64,000 nt of DNA from the NCBI RefSeq assembly GCF_000007345.1, contig NC_003552.1, positions 2,232,001 to 2,296,000 of the forward strand. The letters run 5' to 3'. This document shows positions 40,991 to 52,830 of this stretch, piece after piece (positions within the stretch are counted from its first letter, which is position 1; each line of letters starts with the position of its first letter). A model generated the notes under the pieces. It made no database searches and had not been told where the DNA came from. It saw only the letters and a list, made by a program, of their open reading frames with translations. Source of the DNA: Methanosarcina acetivorans C2A (GTDB lineage Archaea; Halobacteriota; Methanosarcinia; Methanosarcinales; Methanosarcinaceae). The position numbers were made by a program, and so were the translations under genes.

Positions 40991-43900
40991 TTATTCGGTT
41001 TCCGTGAAACTGATCCTGAATGTAGTTCCTCCGTTCTTCTCCATTTCGATTGTACCCTCCAGCTGTTCTACAAGGATATTTACCAGCTGCAGGCCCAGAG
41101 AATCTGTATTCTTGAAGTCGACGTTTTCAGGAAAACCCAACCCGTTGTCCGAGACAACCAGTGAATAAAGGTAACTGTTCTTAATTGAACTCCCTCTATA
41201 ATTATTACTTATGATCTCATCTATGTTTTTATTTTCATTGATCTCCTTCCGGCAGAGTTTTATCCGGATTTCCCCTCTTCTTCCTGCAGGGAAGGCGTAT
41301 TTCAGGGCATTGGAGACAAGTTCGTTGATAATGATTCCCAGAGGAATTGCCGTGTCCATTCCCAGGAATGTATCCTCTGCCTCCAGTTTCAGTTTTACGT
41401 CCTCTTTCCTGACCGTATACGAGCTGAGAAGGTCCGAAGTCAGCTTCCGTAGATAGGCTGAAAAATCAAGGGTTTCGATGTCCCCTGCCCTGTACAGCTC
41501 TTCGTGGATAATGGCCATAGACGCCACGCGGTTCTGGCTTTCCCTGAATGCCTCAATAACTTCCCTGTCTTTGAACTTATCAGCCTGCAGTTCGAGGAGG
41601 CTGGATATTACCTGGAGGTTATTCTTGATCCTGTGGTGGATCTCTTTCTTGCGGATTTCCTCGGTCCTTGCCAGGGCTTCTTCTGCTTCCTTTCTTTCGG
41701 TGATGTCATAGATTGAGCCCTGCACAAGCACGGGTTTCCCTGAAGAATCGGAGATGTTCTGTATGATCTCATTGACCCATCGAACTTTTCCGTCCTTGTG
41801 CCTTATCCGGTACTCCCGGTTAATGATCGTCCCAGGGATGTTTTTCAGTTTCTCGGCGTCTTCAAAAATGCGGAGCCTGTCCTCTTCCTTCACAATCATG
41901 TCCCAGCGTACTTTTCCGGAAAGGAATTCTTCTTCGCTGTATCCGGTTATTTCTTTCAGGAGACCCTCTGCAAAAACCGGATCAAAGTCAACGTCTCCCT
42001 GAAAGGCAACTCCTTTGAAGTTTTGTATAAATGAGCGGTATTTCTCTTCGCTTTCCCTTACTTTTTCAAGGGAATTTTTAATCTGCGTAATGTCTTTGTT
42101 TGCCCCGAGCATCCTGTATATGCGCCCGTTTTCATCCTTCAGGAATACTCCTCTGTTTTCCACATAAATATAGGTACCGTCCTTCCTTTTGAGCCTGTAT
42201 TCCTCGCGGTATTTTTCTCCCTTTTCCAGGCATCTGTTATATGAATCGACTGCTCTTTTGCGATCCTCCGGGTGCAGGAGTTCTTTCCAGTCCTCCAGGC
42301 TGCTTAATTTTTTGAATTCTTCATCCCCGTAATCCATAAGTTCTTTGATATCTCCTCCCCAGCCTATTTTATCTCCAGGAATGTCATAATCATATACCAG
42401 CTGCCCGGTCTGCTCGGCAACGATGCGGAATTTTTCTTCGCTTCTCCGCAGTTCTTCAGTTGCAAGTTTCCTCTCAGTGATGTTTTTTATCACCCCGATC
42501 ATCCGGTATACTCTGCCCTCTTTGTCTCTCAAATAAGTCCCGCAGTCTTCCACATAAATATAGTCCCCGGACTTTCGTTTGAACCTGTATTCCTGGGAGT
42601 AACTCCCTCCGATCTTGAAAACATTTCTAAAATACGTGAATGCTTTTTCATAGTCCTCAGGGTGGATATGCTTTTTCAAGAGCTCACCGGCCGTAAGCTT
42701 GTGCATTTCCTCACTGGTATAACCGCTGATATCCTCAATAGCTCCTGCCCATTTAATGCGGTCTGAAGCTACATCGTAATCGTATACGAGCTGTCCTGTC
42801 TTTTCTGTTGCTATGCGGAACCTTTCTTCGCTTTCCTGAAGTTTTTCTGCGGCAAGCTTTATGGGAGTGATATCTTTTATTACCCCGATAGCTTTGCGGA
42901 TCTTCCCCTTTTCGTTTCGCAGGTAGACTCCGCTGTCTTCTACGTGGAAGTAGTTCCCGTCTTTCCTCCTGAACCTGTATTCCACCCGGAAGTGGCTGTC
43001 TTTTTCCTGGAACTTTTTGAATTCTGCAAAGGTCCTTTTCCGGTCTTCGGGGTGGACATGCTCTGTCCACGTCTTCCCAACGAATTCCCGGAATTCCTCT
43101 GTGCTGTAGCCGGTAATTTCGCTTATGGCACCTGCCCAGGTAAGCACGTCATTTATGTGGTCGTGTTCAAAGACGATCTGGCCTGTCTGTTCGGCAGCTA
43201 CCCTGAAGCGCTCCTCACTTTCTGATAGTTTCTTCTGGGCAAGCTTCTTCTCTTCAATATCTTTGATAACCCCAAGTGCTTTGGATATGTTTCCACTTTC
43301 GTCTTCAAGGTAGACTCCTTCATCTTCCACGGTGACATAGCTTCCGTCTGCCCTTTTGAGCCTGTACTCTTCAAAAAAATCCCCTCCGTTTTCCATGCAC
43401 CGGTAATGTGCCGCCATTACCTTTTCCCGGTCTTCGGGATGGATCAGCCCAAGCCAGCCGTCGGTGTTGATTTCCTGGATTTCCTCAAAGCCGTATCCGG
43501 TAATTTCGGGGATTGCTCCCGCCCATTCAGTTGTTCCCTTTATGTAATCATCATGATACAGGACCTGTCCGGTATGTTCTGCAATAAGGCGGTACCTTTC
43601 TTCGCTTCTTTCCAGTTTTTCCAGGGCAAGTTTCTGTTCCGTTATGTCCTTTATTACTCCGGCAGCCCTGTAGACTTTCCCATCCTTATCTTTTATGTAA
43701 AAGCCGTTGTCCTCTGCGTAGAAGTAGCTGCCGTCTTTTCTTCTAAGCCTGTACTCTTTATGGAAATCTTCCCCTGTATCCAGGGATTTTTTATAGGTCT
43801 CAACCGCCCTCTGGCGGTCCTCCGTATGGAGGTGTTCGGCCCAGACCTCAGGGACGAATTTCTGGAACTCCTCATAACTGTATCCCGTCAGTTCTTCGAT

Positions 43901-44755
43901 TGCCCCTTCCCAGGTACTCCGGTTTGTCCTTAAATCATAATCATAAATAAGCTGTCCTGTCCTTTCTGCAACTGCCCGGAACCTTTCTTCACTTTTCTCC
44001 AGGACTTCCAGGGCTATTTTCTTTTCACTTATATCTTTTATTACGCCAATAATCCAGTTCATCTGACCTTTTTCATTTTTAAGGTACACACTGCTGTCTT
44101 CCACACGGTAATAGCTCCCATCCTTTCTCCTGAACCGGTACTCTGCAAGATATTTCTCCCCTGTTCTCATGCACTTTTCATGGATTTCCCAGGCTCTTTC
44201 CACATCTTCCGGATGGATATGGTCCCTCCAGCCTTCCAGGTCTACCTGCCCGAACTCTTCAGGGCTGTATCCGGTAAGCTCTTTGATTGCTCCCGCCCAT
44301 TCAATTTCCCCTGTGCTGATGTCATAATCATATACAAGCTGCCCCGTTTGCTCGGCAACGATGCGGTATCTTTCCTCGTTTTTCCGGAATATTTCTTCCG
44401 CTTCCACCTGCCTGCTTATGTCAAACCCGTAGATGTTTACGCAGCCCTCTTCGGGGAGAGGGGAGAACCTCACGGAGTAAATCTTTTTTCCTGCAGTAAG
44501 CTCAAGGCATCCCGGATTTTTTAGAGTAAGCACTTTCAGGAAGCTGTGCCTCAGGGCTTGAGGGAGTTTTTCCTTTTCCCGGACTCCCCAGTGTTCCAGC
44601 AAAGGAAAAGCCGCCCTGTTGGCATAGACTATTGTACCATCTTTTTCCACTCTCAGGAAAGGATTCGGGTCATCGGAAAGAAATTTTCCAATTAATTGTT
44701 CATTTACATCCCTTTCGAGCTTTCTGCTGTCTTCGAAGCTTTTAGAGTCCCCCAT
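40991..44755 (-). CDS. soluble histidine kinase with eight PAS domains
   Basis: A 1254-residue sensor kinase without membrane helices. An N-terminal PAS (residues about 20-120) is followed by seven PAS-PAC units of about 125 residues, six of which share the pattern E-R-F-R-x-A-E-x-T-G-Q-L-V-Y-D-Y-D then W-A-G-A-I-x-E-I-T-G-Y. The kinase part is of the HisKA_2 type: the phospho-acceptor is in HHRIKNNLQVISSLLE near residue 1041, and the HATPase_c has NELVSNALKYAFP, DNGLGFP and GLQLV. The near-identical PAS units indicate recent internal amplification. No response regulator is adjacent, so the partner is elsewhere. The ligand may be a heme, flavin or redox signal; this is not visible. Confidence 0.93.
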   Translation of the reverse strand: MGDSKSFEDSRKLERDVNEQLIGKFLSDDPNPFLRVEKDGTIVYANRAAFPLLEHWGVREKEKLPQALRHSFLKVLTLKNPGCLELTAGKKIYSVRFSPLPEEGCVNIYGFDISRQVEAEEIFRKNEERYRIVAEQTGQLVYDYDISTGEIEWAGAIKELTGYSPEEFGQVDLEGWRDHIHPEDVERAWEIHEKCMRTGEKYLAEYRFRRKDGSYYRVEDSSVYLKNEKGQMNWIIGVIKDISEKKIALEVLEKSEERFRAVAERTGQLIYDYDLRTNRSTWEGAIEELTGYSYEEFQKFVPEVWAEHLHTEDRQRAVETYKKSLDTGEDFHKEYRLRRKDGSYFYAEDNGFYIKDKDGKVYRAAGVIKDITEQKLALEKLERSEERYRLIAEHTGQVLYHDDYIKGTTEWAGAIPEITGYGFEEIQEINTDGWLGLIHPEDREKVMAAHYRCMENGGDFFEEYRLKRADGSYVTVEDEGVYLEDESGNISKALGVIKDIEEKKLAQKKLSESEERFRVAAEQTGQIVFEHDHINDVLTWAGAISEITGYSTEEFREFVGKTWTEHVHPEDRKRTFAEFKKFQEKDSHFRVEYRFRRKDGNYFHVEDSGVYLRNEKGKIRKAIGVIKDITPIKLAAEKLQESEERFRIATEKTGQLVYDYDVASDRIKWAGAIEDISGYTSEEMHKLTAGELLKKHIHPEDYEKAFTYFRNVFKIGGSYSQEYRFKRKSGDYIYVEDCGTYLRDKEGRVYRMIGVIKNITERKLATEELRRSEEKFRIVAEQTGQLVYDYDIPGDKIGWGGDIKELMDYGDEEFKKLSSLEDWKELLHPEDRKRAVDSYNRCLEKGEKYREEYRLKRKDGTYIYVENRGVFLKDENGRIYRMLGANKDITQIKNSLEKVRESEEKYRSFIQNFKGVAFQGDVDFDPVFAEGLLKEITGYSEEEFLSGKVRWDMIVKEEDRLRIFEDAEKLKNIPGTIINREYRIRHKDGKVRWVNEIIQNISDSSGKPVLVQGSIYDITERKEAEEALARTEEIRKKEIHHRIKNNLQVISSLLELQADKFKDREVIEAFRESQNRVASMAIIHEELYRAGDIETLDFSAYLRKLTSDLLSSYTVRKEDVKLKLEAEDTFLGMDTAIPLGIIINELVSNALKYAFPAGRRGEIRIKLCRKEINENKNIDEIISNNYRGSSIKNSYLYSLVVSDNGLGFPENVDFKNTDSLGLQLVNILVEQLEGTIEMEKNGGTTFRISFTETE

Positions 44756-45195
44756 TTTTCCTCACTTTTCTGCTCTTGTTTCCTTTCTTTATGGAAATAA
44801 GCCCCTTTGTCCTTTGCTCAAATCACCGGCTAAAATTAGTTTATAGAGGACTACTCTATTTCCACTGTTAATAAATTATGTATTTGATATGCCGGAAGCT
44901 TTTCACTTAAAAATGCATACATTTAAATGCATACATTTGCCCGTTACGCATCCATTGTTTAAAAAAGCATATGATGCGTATTGAATATTTATAGAATTAT
45001 GGGACATTTCCGTTCAAACCAGAAGAGTGATTCATTAATCCTTAATTCATTTTATCGTGATTCGACTTAAAATTTGAATGCTCTTTTTTGAATTTTAAGT
45101 TCTTCTAAAAAGACGCGAGCTAATTATGCGTGATTAAGCCTCAGTTTGTCCAATAATACCGTCCAATTATACGGGCGATTGAAGCGGCTTTTGAA

Positions 45196-45400
45196 CAGAC
45201 GTACCCTGAAGGATAGTCATGCATGAATCCGGCAGAAAAACATTCCAGGCAGCATCTCCGGCAGCATCTCCGGTTCTGACCGTATCTGCAACTTCTACAA
45301 GTGTGGTCTCGATTAGAGTTTTCAGCTTTTCAGCAATCAGGATGCCTGTCTACGCCTGTTATAGCATAAGATGCAAAAATTCTACGCACCGTACTGGAAT
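45196..45400 (-). pseudogene. PfkB kinase relic
   Basis: The DNA gtaccctgaaggatag, then aatccggcagaaaaacat, then ctgaccgtatctgcaacttc matches 35460-35545 of the PfkB gene, the region encoding the DTVGAGDAFSAGFLY signature. A 12-bp duplication (ggcagcatctcc twice) and indels break the frame. Beyond 45310 similarity is faint. Confidence 0.65.
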
Positions 45401-45879
45401 CTTAAAAAACGAATTTCTGGAAAATATATACTTTAAAATATTTTTTTCTAGTAATGGATCGGGTACATAGACAAAATTCTAAAAAAACTGTTTTTGTGAG
45501 GAGTTAAACAGACAAATTATTATTGCTAAGTGAGGGGTGAAATAACTCTCTATATATGATACTATATCATTTAGACGAACATTCATATACAAGTGTTTAC
45601 AAAAGTAAAATGGGGAATATAAGTAAAAAAAATTCTCCAGGGGATGGAGAAAACAAAAAACCCCTACTTTCCCCATCCTCTTAATATATTTTCATAAATT
45701 TGCATAATTCTTCTATGGATTATCATCTTTCTGAGCTATACTTACAAAATATTTTTTTAAGCTGCCTTCCAGAGAATATCTGAAAAGGAGACCTTCATGA
45801 AAGCCCAGGGTTGAGTTTCCAGGAAAAAGTTTGGGCATTTTATTGATTCTTCAGGAGAAGTTTGGGATTTTTTGCTGAT

Positions 45880-46066
45880 ATGCTCTTTACAGGTTTCCAG
45901 TTCTCAGGCAAAACTCTGTCCCAGGCACTCGGAAAGACGAGACCGGTTTTCATTCTATCGCTTTCAAGGCGGCTCTTGAGCTTTCCTGTTAGTGCCGGTG
46001 CTGGTTCTGCGAAATTTAGGGGCCTTGCGTTTACGAGCTGCATTTCATCTGACTTTCCGCAGATAT
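45880..46066 (+). pseudogene. MATE exporter relic
   Basis: The frame gives GFQFSGKTLSQALGKTRPVF, ILSLSRRLLSFPV and then SDFPQ, matching the MATE segment GFQLVGTTVFQALGKPKPAF, FLSLARQLLFLLP and SDF near residues 360-425. Both ends of the gene are missing and the middle is frameshifted. It is in the same orientation relative to the PfkB relic as the intact pair. Confidence 0.7.
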
Positions 46067-46329
46067 CTTCAAAAAAATAACATTCCTATTGCTGTCGTTT
46101 TTTGAGAATTCTTTGAAAATTTGCAGTTATTTATCTCAACTGAAGCTTCGGGAAATGGGTGCTGGAAGTTTTCAATGAGGCAAAATGTAGAAATTGTGGG
46201 ATATTTCAAAAACGCGTGTTTGAAGAACCGGGGTAATCTTCAGAAAAAACGATAGCATGAAAACTTGTGGAAATTGAAAGGATGTCTGCGGAAAGTGGTT
46301 TTCATGCACCATAGACCCGTTTTTTTCGA

Positions 46330-47406
46330 TTACCAGTATTCCCGTTTTCGTTTCATGATCATATACAGGAAAAGCGGAGCGCCCATGAAGGCGGTTATTG
46401 CTCCTACGGGAAGGATAATCGGAGCCAGAACTCTTCTTGCCACAAGGTCTGCGCTGATCAGCAGTAATGCGCCGAAAAGGCCGGATACCGGGAGAACAAA
46501 CCTGTTATCGCCTCCTATGGCAATGCGCGTGAGATGCGGGGCAACCAGGCCTATAAAACCTATCGTCCCCGTAAAGCACACAATACATGCGACCAGCAGG
46601 GTTGTGACCGCCATCAGCAGGATTCGGGTACCTTTGACATTTACACCCAGGCTTGCTGCGGTTTCATCTCCTGCAGCCATAATATTGAGGTCAAGGGACT
46701 TTATCATGAGCAGGAAGACGCAGCATGCAAGGGTGATGGTAATTATGCTAACCTTGGGCCAGGAAGACCTGCCAAGGTCTCCGACTGCCCAGAAAATTGC
46801 TTCTTTTACGGCTTCCGCCTCGCCGAAGTATTGAAGGATAGTTGTCATTGCACTGAAAAGATACATCATCGCAATGCCGGCCAGAATCATGGTTTCAGGC
46901 GTTGCATCCTTTCGGTTTGATAAACCCAGGATTATAAAAGAACACAGCAGAGCAAATAAGAATGCATTGCCTATTACAAGATAATCTCCCCCGATGATCC
47001 CCGAACCTGTAAGGATTGCAAGGGATGCCCCGAAGCCGGCTCCCGAGGATATGCCAAGTGTATATGGACTTGCAAGCGGGTTTTTGAGGATTGCCTGCGT
47101 TACGCAGCCCGCAACCCCAAGCCCGAAACCTGCTACAATCCCCATGAATATGCGGGGAAGCCTGAGGTTCCATATGCATACGTCGGCAAGCGAACTGGAC
47201 GCAAAGTAAGCCGGAAGGAACCTGTGCAGTACTGCAGAATAGGTTTCCCCGAGAGAAAGGTTTGCAGACCCTAAAGAGGCCGATATGCCTGCTACGAGGA
47301 TTATTGAGGCTAAAAGGAAGAAAGTGAAGAATATTTTTCTTCCGATGAATTTTTTATATTGAATTTTAACTTCTTTTGTAGTCAAAGTATGCTGTTTTGT
47401 TTCCAA
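46330..47406 (-). CDS. FecCD-type ABC permease (siderophore/cobalamin/heme uptake)
   Basis: A 358-residue membrane permease with about ten helices, the transport channel for a substrate delivered by a cognate binding protein. Family features are NLRLPRIFMGIVAGFGLGVAG, KNPLASPYTLGISSGAGFGA, and FIGLVAPHLTRIAIGGDNR, the last being the ATPase coupling helix. It follows the cluster of a cohesin protein, a dockerin-tagged binding protein and a DUF4198 protein. The start is TTG 47406 with only a weak ribosome site. No ATPase (FecE/BtuD type) lies downstream, where gene relics are found instead, so the energising subunit must be elsewhere or lost. Confidence 0.9.
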   Translation of the reverse strand: METKQHTLTTKEVKIQYKKFIGRKIFFTFFLLASIILVAGISASLGSANLSLGETYSAVLHRFLPAYFASSSLADVCIWNLRLPRIFMGIVAGFGLGVAGCVTQAILKNPLASPYTLGISSGAGFGASLAILTGSGIIGGDYLVIGNAFLFALLCSFIILGLSNRKDATPETMILAGIAMMYLFSAMTTILQYFGEAEAVKEAIFWAVGDLGRSSWPKVSIITITLACCVFLLMIKSLDLNIMAAGDETAASLGVNVKGTRILLMAVTTLLVACIVCFTGTIGFIGLVAPHLTRIAIGGDNRFVLPVSGLFGALLLISADLVARRVLAPIILPVGAITAFMGAPLFLYMIMKRKREYW

Positions 47407-47499
47407 GGATACACATCCGGCTCAATAGAAAATTTATTGTATTTTTTTTGGTAAGTACCGTAAACAGCCTGGCAGCAGAAGAATCCATTTAAAGCCAGC

Positions 47500-47782
47500 A
47501 CCGGAGAAAAAAAATCATTGAGACTGTCAGCCCAGGTCATTCCGAGAGCATCGTTATGACTGCGCTTGTCTAACCAAAAGCAGTCATAAACGCACCTCCT
47601 TAATGGGGAGTGAAATGCGCTTTGTTCAGTATCGGTTTCATAATCTGAAACAACCGGTCAAATATCCCGAACTCGATTACTATGCTTGCTAACAGCATAC
47701 CGATAACCGTGAAAGGGAAGACAGATATCCAGAATTCGACTGCCCGGACCATTGAAGCGACTGGCGTGGATCCCAAATTCAT
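47500..47782 (-). pseudogene. nucleoside-recognition (gate) domain gene, broken
   Basis: The frame starts MNLGSTPVASMVRAVEFWIS after AGGAA, gives the hydrophobic FPFTVIGMLLASIVIEFG and KPILNKAHFTPH, then stops at 47600. Beyond it GGAFMTAFG, stop, TSAVITMLSE, stop continues in the same frame, matching the HLPPESGGAFVTAFASP-like continuation of nucleoside-recognition/Gate-domain permeases. Several in-frame stops make it a pseudogene. It lies inside the uptake cluster between the methyltransferase and the permease. Confidence 0.65.
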
Positions 47783-47843
47783 CGAATAGTTTCCTGCACA
47801 ATTATCATGGATGAAGCCATCTTCACATCCGAAATTGTGTGGA

Positions 47844-48470
47844 TTATGCTTTCTCTCCTTCCACAAGCATCATTTTATCGAACACTCTGACCGACACATT
47901 CACAAGCCCTGCAGCTTCAAACATGCTGATCACATCTCCAGGGTCTGCCCCATTGTAAAAGGGCAGTTCTTTTCCGATCTCTTCCCCGAAGTGATGGTTT
48001 CCTGGATGGGAATGTCTGGATGGGATGTCAGTCAGGACTTTTCCTCCGGGTTTTGTCACTCTCGCCCATTCTTTAAATGCCGAGTCCGGATTAGCCAGGG
48101 TCCAGACCAGGTGCCTGCTTACAACCGCATCGAACTGTTCGGATTCAAAGGAGAGGTTTTCTGCATCCTCCACCACAAAATTTACGAAATTTCCGGTCCT
48201 TTCCATCTTTTTTTTCGCCTTTTCCAGTTTACTGGCTGCCCAGTCCGCTCCTGTTACCTCGTATCCCAGTTCAGCCAGTAGCAGCGCTAAAAATCCGGTC
48301 CCGGTTCCCATATCCAGAATCTTCAGTTGCTGGTCGCTTCCCAGGAGCTGGGTAATCACTTCGGTCCAGAGTTCCCTTTCTTCTTCGGAATGCACTCCAT
48401 GGGCCGCAATGGCATCATAATCATGTTCTGCAGTGTCCCACCATGCTCTAATTTGCGGTTTTACTTCCAT
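47844..48470 (-). CDS. class I SAM-dependent methyltransferase (UbiE/Methyltransf_11-like)
   Basis: A 208-residue methyltransferase. Motif I is ILDMGTGTGFLALLLAELGY, followed by an acidic residue in VTGADWA, EDAENLSFESEQFDAVVSRH, and PGGKVLTDIP. It begins WWDTAEHDYDA, a pattern seen in methyltransferases linked to metal or corrinoid uptake clusters in methanogens. It starts 17 bp after the DUF4198 gene, so is co-transcribed with it. The substrate is unknown; modification of a metallophore or corrinoid is possible. Confidence 0.85.
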   Translation of the reverse strand: MEVKPQIRAWWDTAEHDYDAIAAHGVHSEEERELWTEVITQLLGSDQQLKILDMGTGTGFLALLLAELGYEVTGADWAASKLEKAKKKMERTGNFVNFVVEDAENLSFESEQFDAVVSRHLVWTLANPDSAFKEWARVTKPGGKVLTDIPSRHSHPGNHHFGEEIGKELPFYNGADPGDVISMFEAAGLVNVSVRVFDKMMLVEGEKA

Positions 48471-48486
48471 GTGTTCTCACCTACGT

Positions 48487-49251
48487 CTATTCACCTACAT
48501 TCATAATTGTGAAAGTTGCAGTCATTACCTTTTTGTCATACAGGCCCTTCACACCTTTTTCAGGGTCCCTGTGCCCTACTTTGAACATCCATTTCCCATC
48601 TTTTTCCAGTTCGAATTCGACCATGCCTTTCTGATCGGTTGTCCTTTCAAGAGGTTTTTCCTGGTTGCCGCTGTGTATTCCATACACGGTTGCTTCAGGC
48701 AGTCCATGTCCGTCATACAGTATTTTCAACAGGATGTGTTCTCCTACCTTATACCGCCTGTAGCCCAGCGGAATTATCTCCAGTTCGTGCCCGACTATCA
48801 GATCAGATATTGTCTGATAAATCCATTCTACCTGACAATTCCTTACCTGACATACCGGAAGGATGGTCTTTGTATACTGCTGGTAATATTTCGGACCTTC
48901 CAGGCCGGGATGAGGTAAATTGAGGATCCCACCGTCGTATTCTACTCCAATGGTGTGGTATCCTGCAAAGGTTGGGATGAACTGCATCAACAAGTGGTCC
49001 TCTGCGGTACTGACCTCGACTGTACGGTTTTCTCCCAGGGCGCTGAAAATTGCAGGACTCACTTTTTTGACCTGAACGGCTTTGTCACTTTTCATATTAT
49101 GCCCGAAACAAAGGACACAAGCTACAGGATCTCCGGGAGAAACATTCTGCATACTGTGTTCAATCCAGATCTCATGTCCGCGTACGATATCGGGGAGGTC
49201 TTCAGGAAAAAAGGGAGAAAAGGCTTCTTTCTGTGAAGCTTTCTGCATCAT
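48487..49251 (-). CDS. DUF4198 domain protein (NikM-like)
   Basis: A 254-residue protein of the DUF4198 family: RGHEIWIEHS near the start, a central HTIGVEYDGGIL, and a C-terminal Ig-like half (LPEATVYGIHSGN, then GMVEFELEKDGKWMFKVGHRD). Related proteins accompany nickel or cobalt transporters. There is no clear signal peptide in this frame, although the family is usually exported; a start further upstream is prevented by the adjoining gene. It begins 6 bp after the substrate-binding protein stop, so it is part of the same operon. Confidence 0.82.
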   Translation of the reverse strand: MMQKASQKEAFSPFFPEDLPDIVRGHEIWIEHSMQNVSPGDPVACVLCFGHNMKSDKAVQVKKVSPAIFSALGENRTVEVSTAEDHLLMQFIPTFAGYHTIGVEYDGGILNLPHPGLEGPKYYQQYTKTILPVCQVRNCQVEWIYQTISDLIVGHELEIIPLGYRRYKVGEHILLKILYDGHGLPEATVYGIHSGNQEKPLERTTDQKGMVEFELEKDGKWMFKVGHRDPEKGVKGLYDKKVMTATFTIMNVGE

Positions 49252-49257
49252 AGTTCC

Positions 49258-50517
49258 TCACTCCGGAAGAGGATAAGCCCAGGTTCCGGCGACCTCGAGG
49301 TTATGGAATTTTTTGAGGTACTCTTTGTGGATTTCTGCCGGGTCGATGTCTTCAAAAAGTTCGGGATGCATGCATTTGGTAAAGAAAATATGCCCTATTA
49401 CCCACCTGGGTCCGCCGATAATATCCCTGTCAACCAGGTAGACGTGATTATTTTTCACAGCATTGACCTTTTCAAAGCCCGGCCTGCCGGACAGGACTTT
49501 TCCCAGCAGATTTTCCATGTCCTCTTTCGTTTTTCCGGGTCCGCTATCAAAGCCCTTCATCAAATCCGCAAACATGAAATCCGGGTTTTTCTCGATCACC
49601 CATTCGGGATCCACTTCCACAGAGGTCCCGGCTAATCCGGTTGCGATATTGAGTCCTCCGGTCCCTTCGGCCACCTGGCCTGCACTGGGGTCGTCCGGGG
49701 TTATAACCCACCATTTTTCCTCACCTCCCGACATGTATTCGTAATAGAAAGCCGGCATATCCTCAGCCTTCAGGTCTTTTGTGCGTTCTTCTACGAGGAC
49801 CTCATAGCCCTGCATCCAGCTGAGAAGTTCGTTTACCTCTGCTTCTTTTCCCAGGACAAAACCCATAGTTGTCAGGTCGGAATCTATGCTTTTCTGGGAA
49901 GCAAGACCCATTACGACCACGGACGTATCCGGAAGATTTTTGGCTATCTCATCGGCATTTTCTGCCTGCCAGAGAGGGAGGAGGACTATATCGGGTTTGA
50001 GAGTCAGCACCATTTCGTAATCAACCGACTGGCCGTGCATCGCAACCTCGGGAAGCTCCGTAAGGCCAAACTCAGACATCCGCTCATGGAAAGCCCGGTC
50101 AACTCCTACAATCATATCTCCTGTTCCGAGAGCAAGCAGGGTTTCTGTAGTACGGTAGTCTGTTGGAATGATATTTTCTACCGGCAGAGCCACATTTACC
50201 TGCCTGCCAACTCCGTCAACAAGCGTAAGCTCTTTCGCTTTTCCAAGCTTGATAAGCTCGATTTTTGTTACGTCAAGCATATCGATGCTGTTATCCCCCG
50301 TGGCATCTGCAAACTGCGTCCGGTTGCCGGAGCCCAGAATGATGCTTTCGGTGTACTCCACGTCCTTCATATCTATGGCTCCGTCTTCGTTTGCGTTTCC
50401 GAGAACGCTGAGCAGGATATCCGATTCAGCAGCAGAATCAGATGCTGTTGCCGGTAATGCCAGCAATGTAAGCAGCAGCAAACTAAAGAGTGATCCGGCC
50501 AGGGCCTTTGTTTTCAT
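49258..50517 (-). CDS. dockerin-tagged ABC substrate-binding protein (FecB/BtuF type)
   Basis: A 419-residue exported protein. A signal peptide occupies residues 1-26. Residues about 36-92 form a type I dockerin: two calcium loops, NANEDGAIDMKDV and DATGDNSIDMLDV, spaced as in dockerins. Residues about 95-419 form a periplasmic-binding-protein class III fold (VDGVGRQVNVALP, TLLALGTGDMIVGVDR, FHNLEV) for iron-siderophore, cobalamin or heme. The start ATG 50517 follows AGAGGTG inside the previous gene; a GTG at 50526 is less likely. It lies directly after a cohesin gene, so docking of the binding protein onto a membrane-held cohesin is the natural reading. Confidence 0.88.
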   Translation of the reverse strand: MKTKALAGSLFSLLLLTLLALPATASDSAAESDILLSVLGNANEDGAIDMKDVEYTESIILGSGNRTQFADATGDNSIDMLDVTKIELIKLGKAKELTLVDGVGRQVNVALPVENIIPTDYRTTETLLALGTGDMIVGVDRAFHERMSEFGLTELPEVAMHGQSVDYEMVLTLKPDIVLLPLWQAENADEIAKNLPDTSVVVMGLASQKSIDSDLTTMGFVLGKEAEVNELLSWMQGYEVLVEERTKDLKAEDMPAFYYEYMSGGEEKWWVITPDDPSAGQVAEGTGGLNIATGLAGTSVEVDPEWVIEKNPDFMFADLMKGFDSGPGKTKEDMENLLGKVLSGRPGFEKVNAVKNNHVYLVDRDIIGGPRWVIGHIFFTKCMHPELFEDIDPAEIHKEYLKKFHNLEVAGTWAYPLPE

Positions 50518-50522
50518 GCTGT

Positions 50523-51137
50523 TCACCTCTGTCCGCTCCTGATAAGATAGATAGCCGTGGTCAGTCCTGTAAGAGTAAGCACTGCCTCAAAACCGGGTGT
50601 AGCTTTCGGTGTGTCTTCCGTTTCAGCGTCCCTCAGGTCCGCATCGACACTGCTGGCTCCGGAAACTCCCCAGTCCGTATCAATACTCTTAGCTTCGGTA
50701 TCTCCAAGCAGACCATCAGAAATGAAAAGCTCGCTTTCTCCGTCACCTATCACCTCAAATCCAACGCTGGCAAGCTGTCCCGAACCGCTTACTCCGGTGA
50801 CCCCTTCCAGGTTAAAGATCACCCTGACCGTTCCGCTGTCAATCGAACGCCACTGCACGGGTATTTCGGTCTTGCCGATACTCCCGTTCTCAATGCCGAC
50901 AACTTTCAGGACAGCCGGGTTGAATTCGAGGTCAAACTGTCCGGCATCAAGGTTTTCAGCATTTTCGACGTTTACGGTTGCATAAACCGTACTCTCCTTC
51001 ACCAGCTCAGGCGTGCTTAAACCGACAGTTGCCTGCTGCGCCTGGCCCGGAACGGTTGCAAATACCAGAACCAGCAAGACAAAGCAGGTCCCGGACAGGA
51101 AATCTCTCTTCAACTTCTTCCATGAATTTTTTTTCAT
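50523..51137 (-). CDS. membrane-anchored cohesin-domain protein
   Basis: A 204-residue exported protein. Signal peptide at residues about 1-33 (FLSGTCFVLLVLVFATVPG). Residues about 35-150 form a cohesin-type beta-sandwich: VYATVNVENAENLDAGQFDL, EFNPAVLKVVGIENG, VRVIFNLEGVTGVSGSG and LASVGFEV. A short acidic linker leads to TPGFEAVLTLTGLTTAIYLI and a basic end, a PGF-CTERM-like anchor. ATG 51137 follows GGGTGAT. Its stop lies 5 bp before the start of the dockerin-tagged binding protein, so the two are translationally linked. Confidence 0.87.
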   Translation of the reverse strand: MKKNSWKKLKRDFLSGTCFVLLVLVFATVPGQAQQATVGLSTPELVKESTVYATVNVENAENLDAGQFDLEFNPAVLKVVGIENGSIGKTEIPVQWRSIDSGTVRVIFNLEGVTGVSGSGQLASVGFEVIGDGESELFISDGLLGDTEAKSIDTDWGVSGASSVDADLRDAETEDTPKATPGFEAVLTLTGLTTAIYLIRSGQR

Positions 51138-51946: not shown

Positions 51947-52369
51947 TTAATCCTCTCTTTCAGCTAGGAATCGGGCAACGTATTCAATGAAATCTTCCAT
52001 ATCTTCAATGCCGTTTTGCAGTTTTTCATAAAGCTTATCCACTTCTACTTTTGCATACATGTGCACGAGTATATTCCGAAATCCGACGGCGGGCTCAATT
52101 TTTCTGGCAAAAGTTTCAGGAAGAATTCCATTTTCTCCCAGGGTACGGAATATTTCCTTATAACTTTGTGGACGCTTAATTTTTTCCATTGAAATAATGA
52201 TCTCACCAATATCCAGCATACATTCAAGCGAGATTTGTAAATATCTTTCTACAGCTCCCCTGAGCACATAATTTTGTTCGATTTCTTCGAAGCTGTATTG
52301 CTGAAGGTCCTTCAAGACGGCAATATATCCTTCAAGCAGCTCAAGCTTGTCTATTACTTCCTGTCTCAT
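51947..52369 (-). CDS. hepT: HepT-like toxin (HEPN RNase fold)
   Basis: A 140-residue helical HEPN-family protein. It keeps the active Rx4HxY motif as RNILVHMY near residue 99-106, which forms the RNase site and is the target of adenylylation by MntA in the characterised system. The start ATG overlaps the end of the MntA-like gene by 4 bp (ATGA), the standard gene arrangement. It probably acts as a type VII toxin or stress RNase in the cytoplasm. Confidence 0.85.
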   Translation of the reverse strand: MRQEVIDKLELLEGYIAVLKDLQQYSFEEIEQNYVLRGAVERYLQISLECMLDIGEIIISMEKIKRPQSYKEIFRTLGENGILPETFARKIEPAVGFRNILVHMYAKVEVDKLYEKLQNGIEDMEDFIEYVARFLAERED

Positions 52370-52809
52370 CCAAACCTGCCTTTAGCCATTCTTTCAATAG
52401 CTCTTTTCATGTGCCTTTTGATATAATATTGCTCATCATAGTACCTGGACATTATCCCCGTTTCAAAATGTACTCTTATCCTCTCTTCAGATTTCAAAAT
52501 GACTCCGTCACGTATGATATTGAATGCCAGGAGCAGAGGAGAGTCGTTGAGCACGACAAGATCCACATTTTTTGTTTTAAGAACGTCACCAAGGTCGACT
52601 ATCAGCTTCAGCTGAAGGTCAAAAGCTTCCTTTTTTGTCAGGGTGCTGTCAAAAAGGATGGCAATATCTATATCACTCAGGCAGTTAGCTTCCCCCCGGA
52701 CCGTCGAACCGAAAAGATAAGCAAGTGTAACACTATCTACATGTAAGAAAAATTCGCGCAGCTTTCTTTCCAGCTGTTCCATACCAGATTGTGTGTCGTC
52801 GGCCTGCAT
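52366..52809 (-). CDS. mntA: MntA-like nucleotidyltransferase antitoxin
   Basis: A minimal nucleotidyltransferase of about 147 residues with the signature GSTVRGEANCLSDIDIAI, the GS-x10-DxD motif for metal and ATP binding. In the HepT/MntA system it adds AMP to the toxin Tyr and so silences it. The start is uncertain: the frame reaches TTG 52830, ATG 52809 is chosen, and ATG 52782 is also possible. No operator is evident upstream. Confidence 0.83.
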   Translation of the reverse strand: MQADDTQSGMEQLERKLREFFLHVDSVTLAYLFGSTVRGEANCLSDIDIAILFDSTLTKKEAFDLQLKLIVDLGDVLKTKNVDLVVLNDSPLLLAFNIIRDGVILKSEERIRVHFETGIMSRYYDEQYYIKRHMKRAIERMAKGRFG

Positions 52810-52830
52810 ATGATCAAACAATGGAGTCAA

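Follow-up and report, generated by a model that had tools for sequence, protein, structure and literature searches.

A cohesin gene paired with a dockerin-tagged binding-protein gene in Methanosarcina acetivorans: a predicted two-part membrane tether for a transporter binding protein

How is a substrate-binding protein kept near its permease when its own chain lacks a membrane anchor? The question is raised by a locus of Methanosarcina acetivorans C2A, at positions 46,330 to 51,137 of a 64,000-nucleotide stretch of contig NC_003552.1 (positions 2,232,001 to 2,296,000; hereafter the window), where a gene for a cohesin protein directly precedes a gene for a dockerin-bearing, FecB-type binding protein of the ATP-binding cassette (ABC) kind. 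In archaeal importers, a lipid or a membrane helix usually holds the binding protein close to the permease, where it is needed. We conclude that the cohesin-dockerin pair is probably a two-part membrane tether for the binding protein, with binding between the two domains predicted from their sequences.

RESULTS

The sole cohesin of the genome is encoded next to its sole above-cut-off dockerin

The argument centers on two genes of the locus:

50523..51137, minus strand: cohesin protein, 204 amino acids, with a signal peptide, one cohesin domain (about residues 34 to 162), a linker and a PGF-CTERM tail (Pfam Cohesin and PGF-CTERM)
49258..50517, minus strand: dockerin-FecB substrate-binding protein, 419 amino acids, with a signal peptide, a two-loop dockerin (about residues 36 to 95) and a Peripla_BP_2 domain (Pfam)

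The first product scored 46.1 bits against Pfam Cohesin (PF00963; cut-off 24.1), and its tail scored 30.1 bits against the Pfam PGF-CTERM model PF18204 (cut-off 18.8). An AlphaFold2 model of the cohesin domain, built from a 23-sequence alignment, reached a predicted local distance difference test score (pLDDT) of 82.2 and a predicted template modeling score of 0.74, with residues 114-129 unreliable. When this model was searched with Foldseek, all 50 matches listed were, by PDB title, cohesins or complexes or scaffoldin parts containing one (E values of 3.7e-6 to 2.2e-4), and the Archaeoglobus fulgidus cohesin 2xdh ranked fourth. A profile search against the PDB concurred (2xdh, E value of 1.1e-5). 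An earlier note, made from the DNA letters alone, had described a cohesin with a signal peptide and a PGF-CTERM-like tail and had proposed structure prediction as a check of the fold; the domains are borne out by the Pfam scores, and the predicted structure is a cohesin beta-sandwich. This protein was the sole cohesin match in a Pfam scan of the whole 5,751,492-bp genome, and the same scan found no scaffoldin with several cohesins.

The second product scored 78.6 bits against Peripla_BP_2 and, against Dockerin_1 (PF00404; cut-off 22.9), 19.6 bits in hmmscan and 23.5 bits in the genome scan. Among the 25 dockerin matches listed for the genome, it is the only one above the cut-off. Its AlphaFold2 model has a pLDDT of 90.6, with the blocks of residues 41-100 at 94-98 and block 31-40 at 79, and places helices 50-60 and 80-90 after the two calcium loops. 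These two loop-helix repeats agree with the two-loop dockerin claimed earlier between the signal peptide and the ligand domain. Across 93 dockerin-FecB proteins, positions 3, 5 and 9 of loop 1 and positions 1, 5 and 9 of loop 2 are nearly always D or N; the N at position 1 of loop 1 was imposed by the search pattern, and position 3 of loop 2 varies (K, T or N). Among PDB folds, the ligand domain most resembled YiuA (whose solved structure contains iron and a catechol compound), a protein of the FepB type and the molybdate-binding protein of HI1470/71; nickel- and B12-binding proteins ranked lower.

The genome's only cohesin and its only above-cut-off dockerin are thus encoded by neighboring genes. 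The ATG of the dockerin-FecB gene lies 5 bp past the cohesin stop codon, which confirms the gap given in the earlier note; an alternative in-frame GTG at 50526 would overlap the stop by 4 nucleotides. The adjacency is more than chance, because the only cohesin adjoins the only above-cut-off dockerin in a 5.75-Mb genome and because the pair is found in 9 of 30 genomes of the genus.

The pair recurs in Methanosarcina and across the class

Pfam cohesins occur in 15 of 30 Methanosarcina genomes at an E value of ≤0.01 (13 above the cut-off), and several of them, among the matches listed, are of other kinds and lie within large surface proteins. A profile of the window-type cohesin (A1) matched 9 of the 30 genomes, including M. 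acetivorans, and a profile of the dockerin-FecB protein (A2) matched the identical nine. Their co-occurrence in other Methanosarcina genomes had been named as a check, and the cohesin gene adjoins the dockerin-FecB gene in all nine, that is, in the window and all 8 relatives.

Class-wide, A1 matched 45 of 237 genomes (E ≤ 1e-8) and A2 matched 59 (E ≤ 1e-45). The A2 match spanned the dockerin in 56 of the 59, of which 33 belong to a family labeled f7, which we take to be Methanothrix, and 23 lie outside it; matches that did not span the dockerin (G061 and G068 outside f7, G235 within it) were excluded. The A1 cohesin was present in 23/23 of these genomes outside f7 and in 0/33 within it. The A2 search missed the dockerin-FecB gene of G047, which adjoins its cohesin on locus L100; the class searches therefore have false negatives. 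Loci were picked from search matches and not at random.

Dockerin contact positions differ between cohesin genomes and f7

In the Clostridium thermocellum dockerin, loop positions 10 and 11 contact the cohesin, and the title of 2ccl, among the Foldseek matches listed, names an S45A/T46A mutant of a cohesin-dockerin complex. In genomes with a cohesin, position 10 is M, V, L, I or F in 45/47 (loop 1) and 47/47 (loop 2) dockerin-FecB proteins. The corresponding counts in f7 are 0/46 and 1/46, and the residue there is mainly glutamate (40/46 in loop 1, 26/46 in loop 2).

In f7, among the loci listed, the dockerin-FecB genes stand in tandem arrays beside CobN-like and NifD/NifH-like genes (L170-L172, L175, L187), neighbors that are suggestive of tetrapyrrole or metal chemistry. 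A search for a cryptic f7 cohesin gave little: at an E-value threshold of 0.1, Pfam listed five weak matches, all below the cut-off, in 4 of 25 genomes, and a third profile (A3), run without a positive control, matched 0/25. Since dockerin-FecB proteins occur in f7 without a recognizable cohesin, the dockerin does not require one; either the f7 partner goes unrecognized or the dockerin does something else there. The part of Table 2 of PMC5244752 used here likewise lists 17 dockerin domains and 0 cohesins for Methanosaeta concilii. For M. acetivorans, it lists 5 dockerins and 2 cohesins, compared with the one cohesin match of the present scan.

The 24 other dockerin matches listed for M. acetivorans are weak, and by coordinates 22 of them are a C-terminal double EF-hand module. 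This module is found in 26 places in the genome, where it ends about two dozen surface proteins, most longer than 1,000 amino acids (L003-L016), in copies mostly >90% identical to each other. We rejected it as the main cohesin partner because its distribution does not follow that of the cohesin: it is present in 9 of 30 genomes of the genus, only 4 of which have the pair, and it is missing from 5 of the 9 genomes with the pair. It may still be an additional partner.

Relatives beyond Methanosarcina

One peptide pattern scanned over genome contigs yielded 62 named loci, in some cases several per genome. They span Methanosarcina, the anaerobic methanotrophic archaea (ANME) ANME-3, ANME-2 and 2c, and ANME-1 (Methanophagales), the alkane oxidizers Ethanoperedens, Argoarchaeum and Syntrophoarchaeum, and two bacterial records, including Desulfospira joergensenii. 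The gene right after the cohesin encodes a dockerin-FecB protein at 21 loci, a dockerin-Opp protein at 5 and another dockerin protein at 3; at 10 loci the contig ends, and 23 were scored as having none, including Argoarchaeum L218, which was so scored owing to a large open reading frame overlap though both domains are present. In Methanosarcina and ANME-3 loci, the cohesin and dockerin-FecB genes nearly touch. At L106 a single cohesin gene stands ahead of four dockerin-FecB genes, and at several ANME-2 loci multi-cohesin proteins are encoded beside single-cohesin ones.

The dockerin of the FecB-type relatives was detected by the family's own profile. In Opp-type relatives, SBP_bac_5 and Dockerin_1 were above the Pfam cut-off in 4/4 proteins tested, and ATPase-like genes lie behind the pairs at L108, L126 and L127. 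Five of the six printed Opp-type dockerins (ANME-2 and ANME-3) have NMQDVT in at least one loop, as do many FecB-type ones; this shared motif fits one kind of cohesin partner for binding proteins of unrelated families. The bacterium Desulfospira joergensenii (L232:5818-9097) has a cohesin gene followed by two dockerin-FecB genes, an arrangement that suggests transfer between domains of life.

The anchor signal lies on the cohesin

According to passages of PMC5244752, the PGF-CTERM signal is recognized by archaeosortase A, and the M. acetivorans genome encodes this enzyme (TIGR04125, 263.8 bits; cut-off 75). By manual count, a literal PGF motif stands near the end in 25 of the 32 listed archaeal cohesins whose genes precede a dockerin gene, and the Desulfospira cohesin ends in a hydrophobic stretch and a basic tail. 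Because of these 25 motifs and the Desulfospira tail, anchoring seems to be conserved in the design of these cohesins.

The binding protein of the window has a signal peptide of the cleavable type and neither a lipobox nor an N-terminal helix. Inspected by eye, the 18 other FecB-family matches of the genome comprise 10 with a lipobox (loose pattern), 4 with an uncleaved-looking N-terminal helix and 3 with an unclear start. The earlier note had proposed that the pair replaces lipid anchoring. This fits the genome itself, where 14 of these 18 paralogues have a lipobox or helix, but it is not general, because f7 has no cohesin above the cut-off and its non-dockerin relatives also lack a lipobox. 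The loose pattern matched 9 of 92 proteins (this count and the loop count of 93 were de-duplicated differently, and a few locus-end genes, such as L066/L075, may count twice); by eye, the cysteine falls within the hydrophobic core or right at the start in 7 of the 9, and those of L168 and L152 could be real. Also by eye, a single EF-hand-like stretch, not a full dockerin, follows the signal peptide in three FecB-type proteins (L023, L175:2288-3478 and L187:9644-12064).

The operon lacks a local ATPase gene

The five open genes of the locus lie on the minus strand in the order cohesin, dockerin-FecB, DUF4198, methyltransferase and FecCD permease; open reading frames and Pfam agree with the coordinates and gene order given before. 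Beyond the pair, the operon consists of three genes and a remnant:

48487..49251, minus strand: DUF4198 protein, 254 amino acids (Pfam DUF4198, 105 bits)
47844..48470, minus strand: class I S-adenosylmethionine methyltransferase, 208 amino acids (Pfam Methyltransf_11, 89.7 bits)
47540..47761, minus strand: remnant of a Gate-domain (PF07670) permease, residues 3-76 of 311 (tblastn with the intact L061 protein)
46330..47406, minus strand: FecCD-type ABC permease, 358 amino acids (Pfam FecCD, 290 bits)

The top NCBIfam scores of the FecCD permease were to BtuC and F420-0 permease models, all below the cut-off. L061 and L062 are the best-preserved relatives; in them, a Gate-domain permease gene comes before FecCD and a FecE-type ATPase gene after it. 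The remnant matched the intact L061 protein at 69% identity (E value of 7e-29), and that protein scored 47.6 bits against Pfam Gate (cut-off 29.6). After FecCD (44755-46330), no ATPase gene or remnant was found in the window, unlike in 7 of 8 relatives' operons, where the ATPase is 89-100% identical to the query (itself one of the seven). A translocated operon ATPase elsewhere in the genome was rejected, the best match having only 56% identity. Because the Gate gene is a fragment, no ATPase gene is local and the best ATPase elsewhere reaches only 56%, the M. acetivorans locus by itself does not encode a complete importer. The label "ABC uptake operon" in the earlier note thus holds for the binding protein and the FecCD permease but not for the Gate and ATPase components.

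The methyltransferase and FecCD genes are present in 8/8 relatives' operons. DUF4198 is full-length in 5 of 8 and found only as fragments in L060, L065 and L196; the Gate gene is fragmented or absent in L059, L060, L064, L065 and L196. (The G027 relative was read on a 4-kb locus for the pairing and on L196 for the whole operon.) Pairwise ratios of nonsynonymous to synonymous substitution rates (dN/dS) were 0.19-0.26 for the cohesin and 0.11-0.17 for the binding protein and were low for all four remaining genes measured, although a pairwise ratio does not isolate recent relaxation on the M. acetivorans branch. Such values speak against free decay of the remaining genes.

By eye, transposase-like open reading frames lie near the operon at L059, L061 and in the L039/L066 upstream regions, in keeping with its patchy presence (9/30). 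Upstream of the cohesin gene in the window is a pair of genes for a nucleotidyltransferase (Polbeta/NTP_transf_2) and a HepT-like protein (51947-52830; Pfam), likely a toxin-antitoxin module, and downstream of the operon is a gene for a 1254-amino-acid histidine kinase with seven PAS_3 matches (40991-44755; Pfam).

DISCUSSION

A predicted tether and the evidence that bears on it

We infer binding, its calcium dependence, the membrane location and delivery to the permease as parts of the following scheme. The cohesin would be secreted, and processing of its PGF-CTERM tail by archaeosortase A would keep it at the outer face of the cytoplasmic membrane. There its cohesin domain would grip, with calcium, the near-N-terminal dockerin of the co-produced FecB-type binding protein. 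Itself without a membrane anchor, the binding protein would be held beneath the surface layer (S-layer), near the FecCD permease. The anchor would be a separate part and could be shared. In M. acetivorans, either a different FecE-type system would supply the ATP-hydrolyzing subunit, or this permease may no longer carry out uptake. A membrane-held cohesin that catches a dockerin-tagged binding protein, as the earlier note had proposed, is favored by the fold, the anchor signal, the archaeosortase gene, the pairing across two unrelated binding-protein families and the contact positions; the absence of a local ATPase and of an above-cut-off cohesin in f7 counts on the other side.

Several observations weigh against a tether. 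Some concern the domain assignments: the dockerin of the window is below the Pfam cut-off in one of two scans, Dockerin_1 was not listed at an E value of ≤0.01 for 3/3 FecB-type relatives tested (L106, L100 and L170), and the NCBIfam PGF-CTERM model TIGR04126 gave the cohesin 19.9, below its cut-off of 24.5. Others concern the pairing. No dockerin gene directly follows the cohesin gene at 23 of the 62 named loci, and no Pfam cohesin above the cut-off was found in 25/25 f7 genomes tested. In the sixth of the Opp-type dockerins (L108), both loops carry T at position 10 even though its gene adjoins a cohesin gene, and the position-10 contrast, which sets one clade against the rest and does not represent independent events, could be lineage history. 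With respect to anchoring, the FecB-family protein L023 of the same genome likewise has neither a lipobox nor an N-terminal helix, and 0/17 non-dockerin relatives at f7 loci have a lipobox. Passages of PMC5244752 describe archaeosortase A as lacking in ANME-1; despite this reported lack, ANME-1 cohesins carry PGF-type tails (L240, L242, L244 and L246). Lastly, the operon of the window has neither an ATPase gene nor an intact Gate gene.

A wider scheme would make the anchoring general and exchangeable: throughout the Methanosarcinia and related groups, one membrane cohesin or scaffoldin would serve several ABC binding proteins of unrelated families, with specificity set by loop position 10, and Methanothrix would hold its arrays of dockerin-tagged binding proteins by a cohesin too divergent for existing profiles to recognize. 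We put this forward only tentatively and consider it somewhat less likely to hold than to fail.

Alternative explanations

The alternative that survives best can be true alongside the tether. The M. acetivorans operon may be a decaying remainder that still yields the tether beside a transporter that has ceased to work. The truncated Gate gene and the lost ATPase gene, with no close copy elsewhere in the genome, agree with this, as do the broken or absent Gate gene at five relatives' loci and the DUF4198 pieces at three. However, the five remaining genes are open, the four that were measured have low pairwise dN/dS, and FecE-type ATPases at 56% and 51% identity are available in trans. We consider decay unlikely, at perhaps one chance in a handful.

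The contact might instead serve surface assembly or cell-cell adhesion, the binding protein being the ligand-binding part of a surface complex. In the portions used here, the authors of PMC9012536, PMC5244752 and PMC10553843 tie cohesin and dockerin proteins of ANME and their partner bacteria to adhesion or partnership; multi-cohesin proteins share the clusters at ANME-2 loci, and the window operon is without an ATPase. Against these points, the sole cohesin protein of M. acetivorans has a single cohesin domain and no scaffoldin was matched, the pair is accompanied by a FecCD permease gene in 8/8 relatives' operons and by an ATPase gene in 7/8, and ATPase-like genes also lie behind the Opp-type pairs. 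Adhesion is thus an improbable function for this pair. Still less probable is a dockerin that acts alone (in stability, in self-association or with another partner) beside a Methanosarcina cohesin that has another job: the f7 proteins without a cohesin above the cut-off and the calcium-loop residues, intact in cohesin genomes and f7 alike, would allow it, but a cohesin accompanies the dockerin in 23/23 genomes outside f7, position 10 differs between the two groups, and hardly any gap separates the two genes at Methanosarcina and ANME-3 loci. The two-part tether remains the reading that we prefer.

Comparison with known systems

M. acetivorans is a genetically tractable methanogen, and with the tether non-cellulosomal cohesins would gain a testable job in a methanogen with a single pair. 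The window cohesin shares its archaeal cohesin fold with the non-cellulosomal cohesin of A. fulgidus (2XDH); we know of no transport link for the cohesin and dockerin of that organism. Binding of archaeal cohesin-dockerin pairs has been verified, according to a passage of PMC9012536 (presumably Chadwick et al. 2022) that cites earlier work. The function of cohesins outside the cellulosome is called unknown in the part of PMC5244752 consulted, and the corresponding part of PMC10553843, on partner bacteria, treats cohesin/dockerin proteins as putative adhesins.

The closest likeness is to ANME. As described in sections of PMC9012536, ABC-importer binding proteins are common dockerin carriers there, as in the window, and single- and multi-cohesin, scaffoldin-like proteins occur in the same genomes. 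The types named in those sections are NikA/OppA and TroA, with no partner assigned to them, whereas here a single-cohesin PGF-CTERM gene directly precedes the binding-protein gene, in a methanogen. The earlier note's remark that such a use is little described therefore holds only in part: dockerins on ANME binding proteins were already published, but among the titles and abstract openings listed, none described a cohesin gene dedicated to anchoring and paired with the gene of a binding protein. The tether would offer a simple reading for part of the cohesin and dockerin wealth of methane-oxidizing archaea, which the portions of this literature seen here discuss largely as adhesion or attachment.

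With the bacterial cellulosome, the pair shares the cohesin fold and the two-loop dockerin. It differs in that the genome has no scaffoldin, the operon encodes no enzyme with a carbohydrate-binding module, and the cargo is a transporter binding protein. If the predicted binding holds, some methane-making and methane-eating archaea would fasten their uptake proteins by the snap-fit of cellulose-degrading complexes. FecB-type binding proteins of family TIGR04281 are, by the family name, likewise held by PGF-CTERM, but their anchor is on the same chain as the binding protein, whereas here a second chain, the cohesin, carries it (the binding protein of the window scored 47.7 against a cut-off of 325). 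With the clip on a chain of its own, an anchor could be shared and one binding protein exchanged for another.

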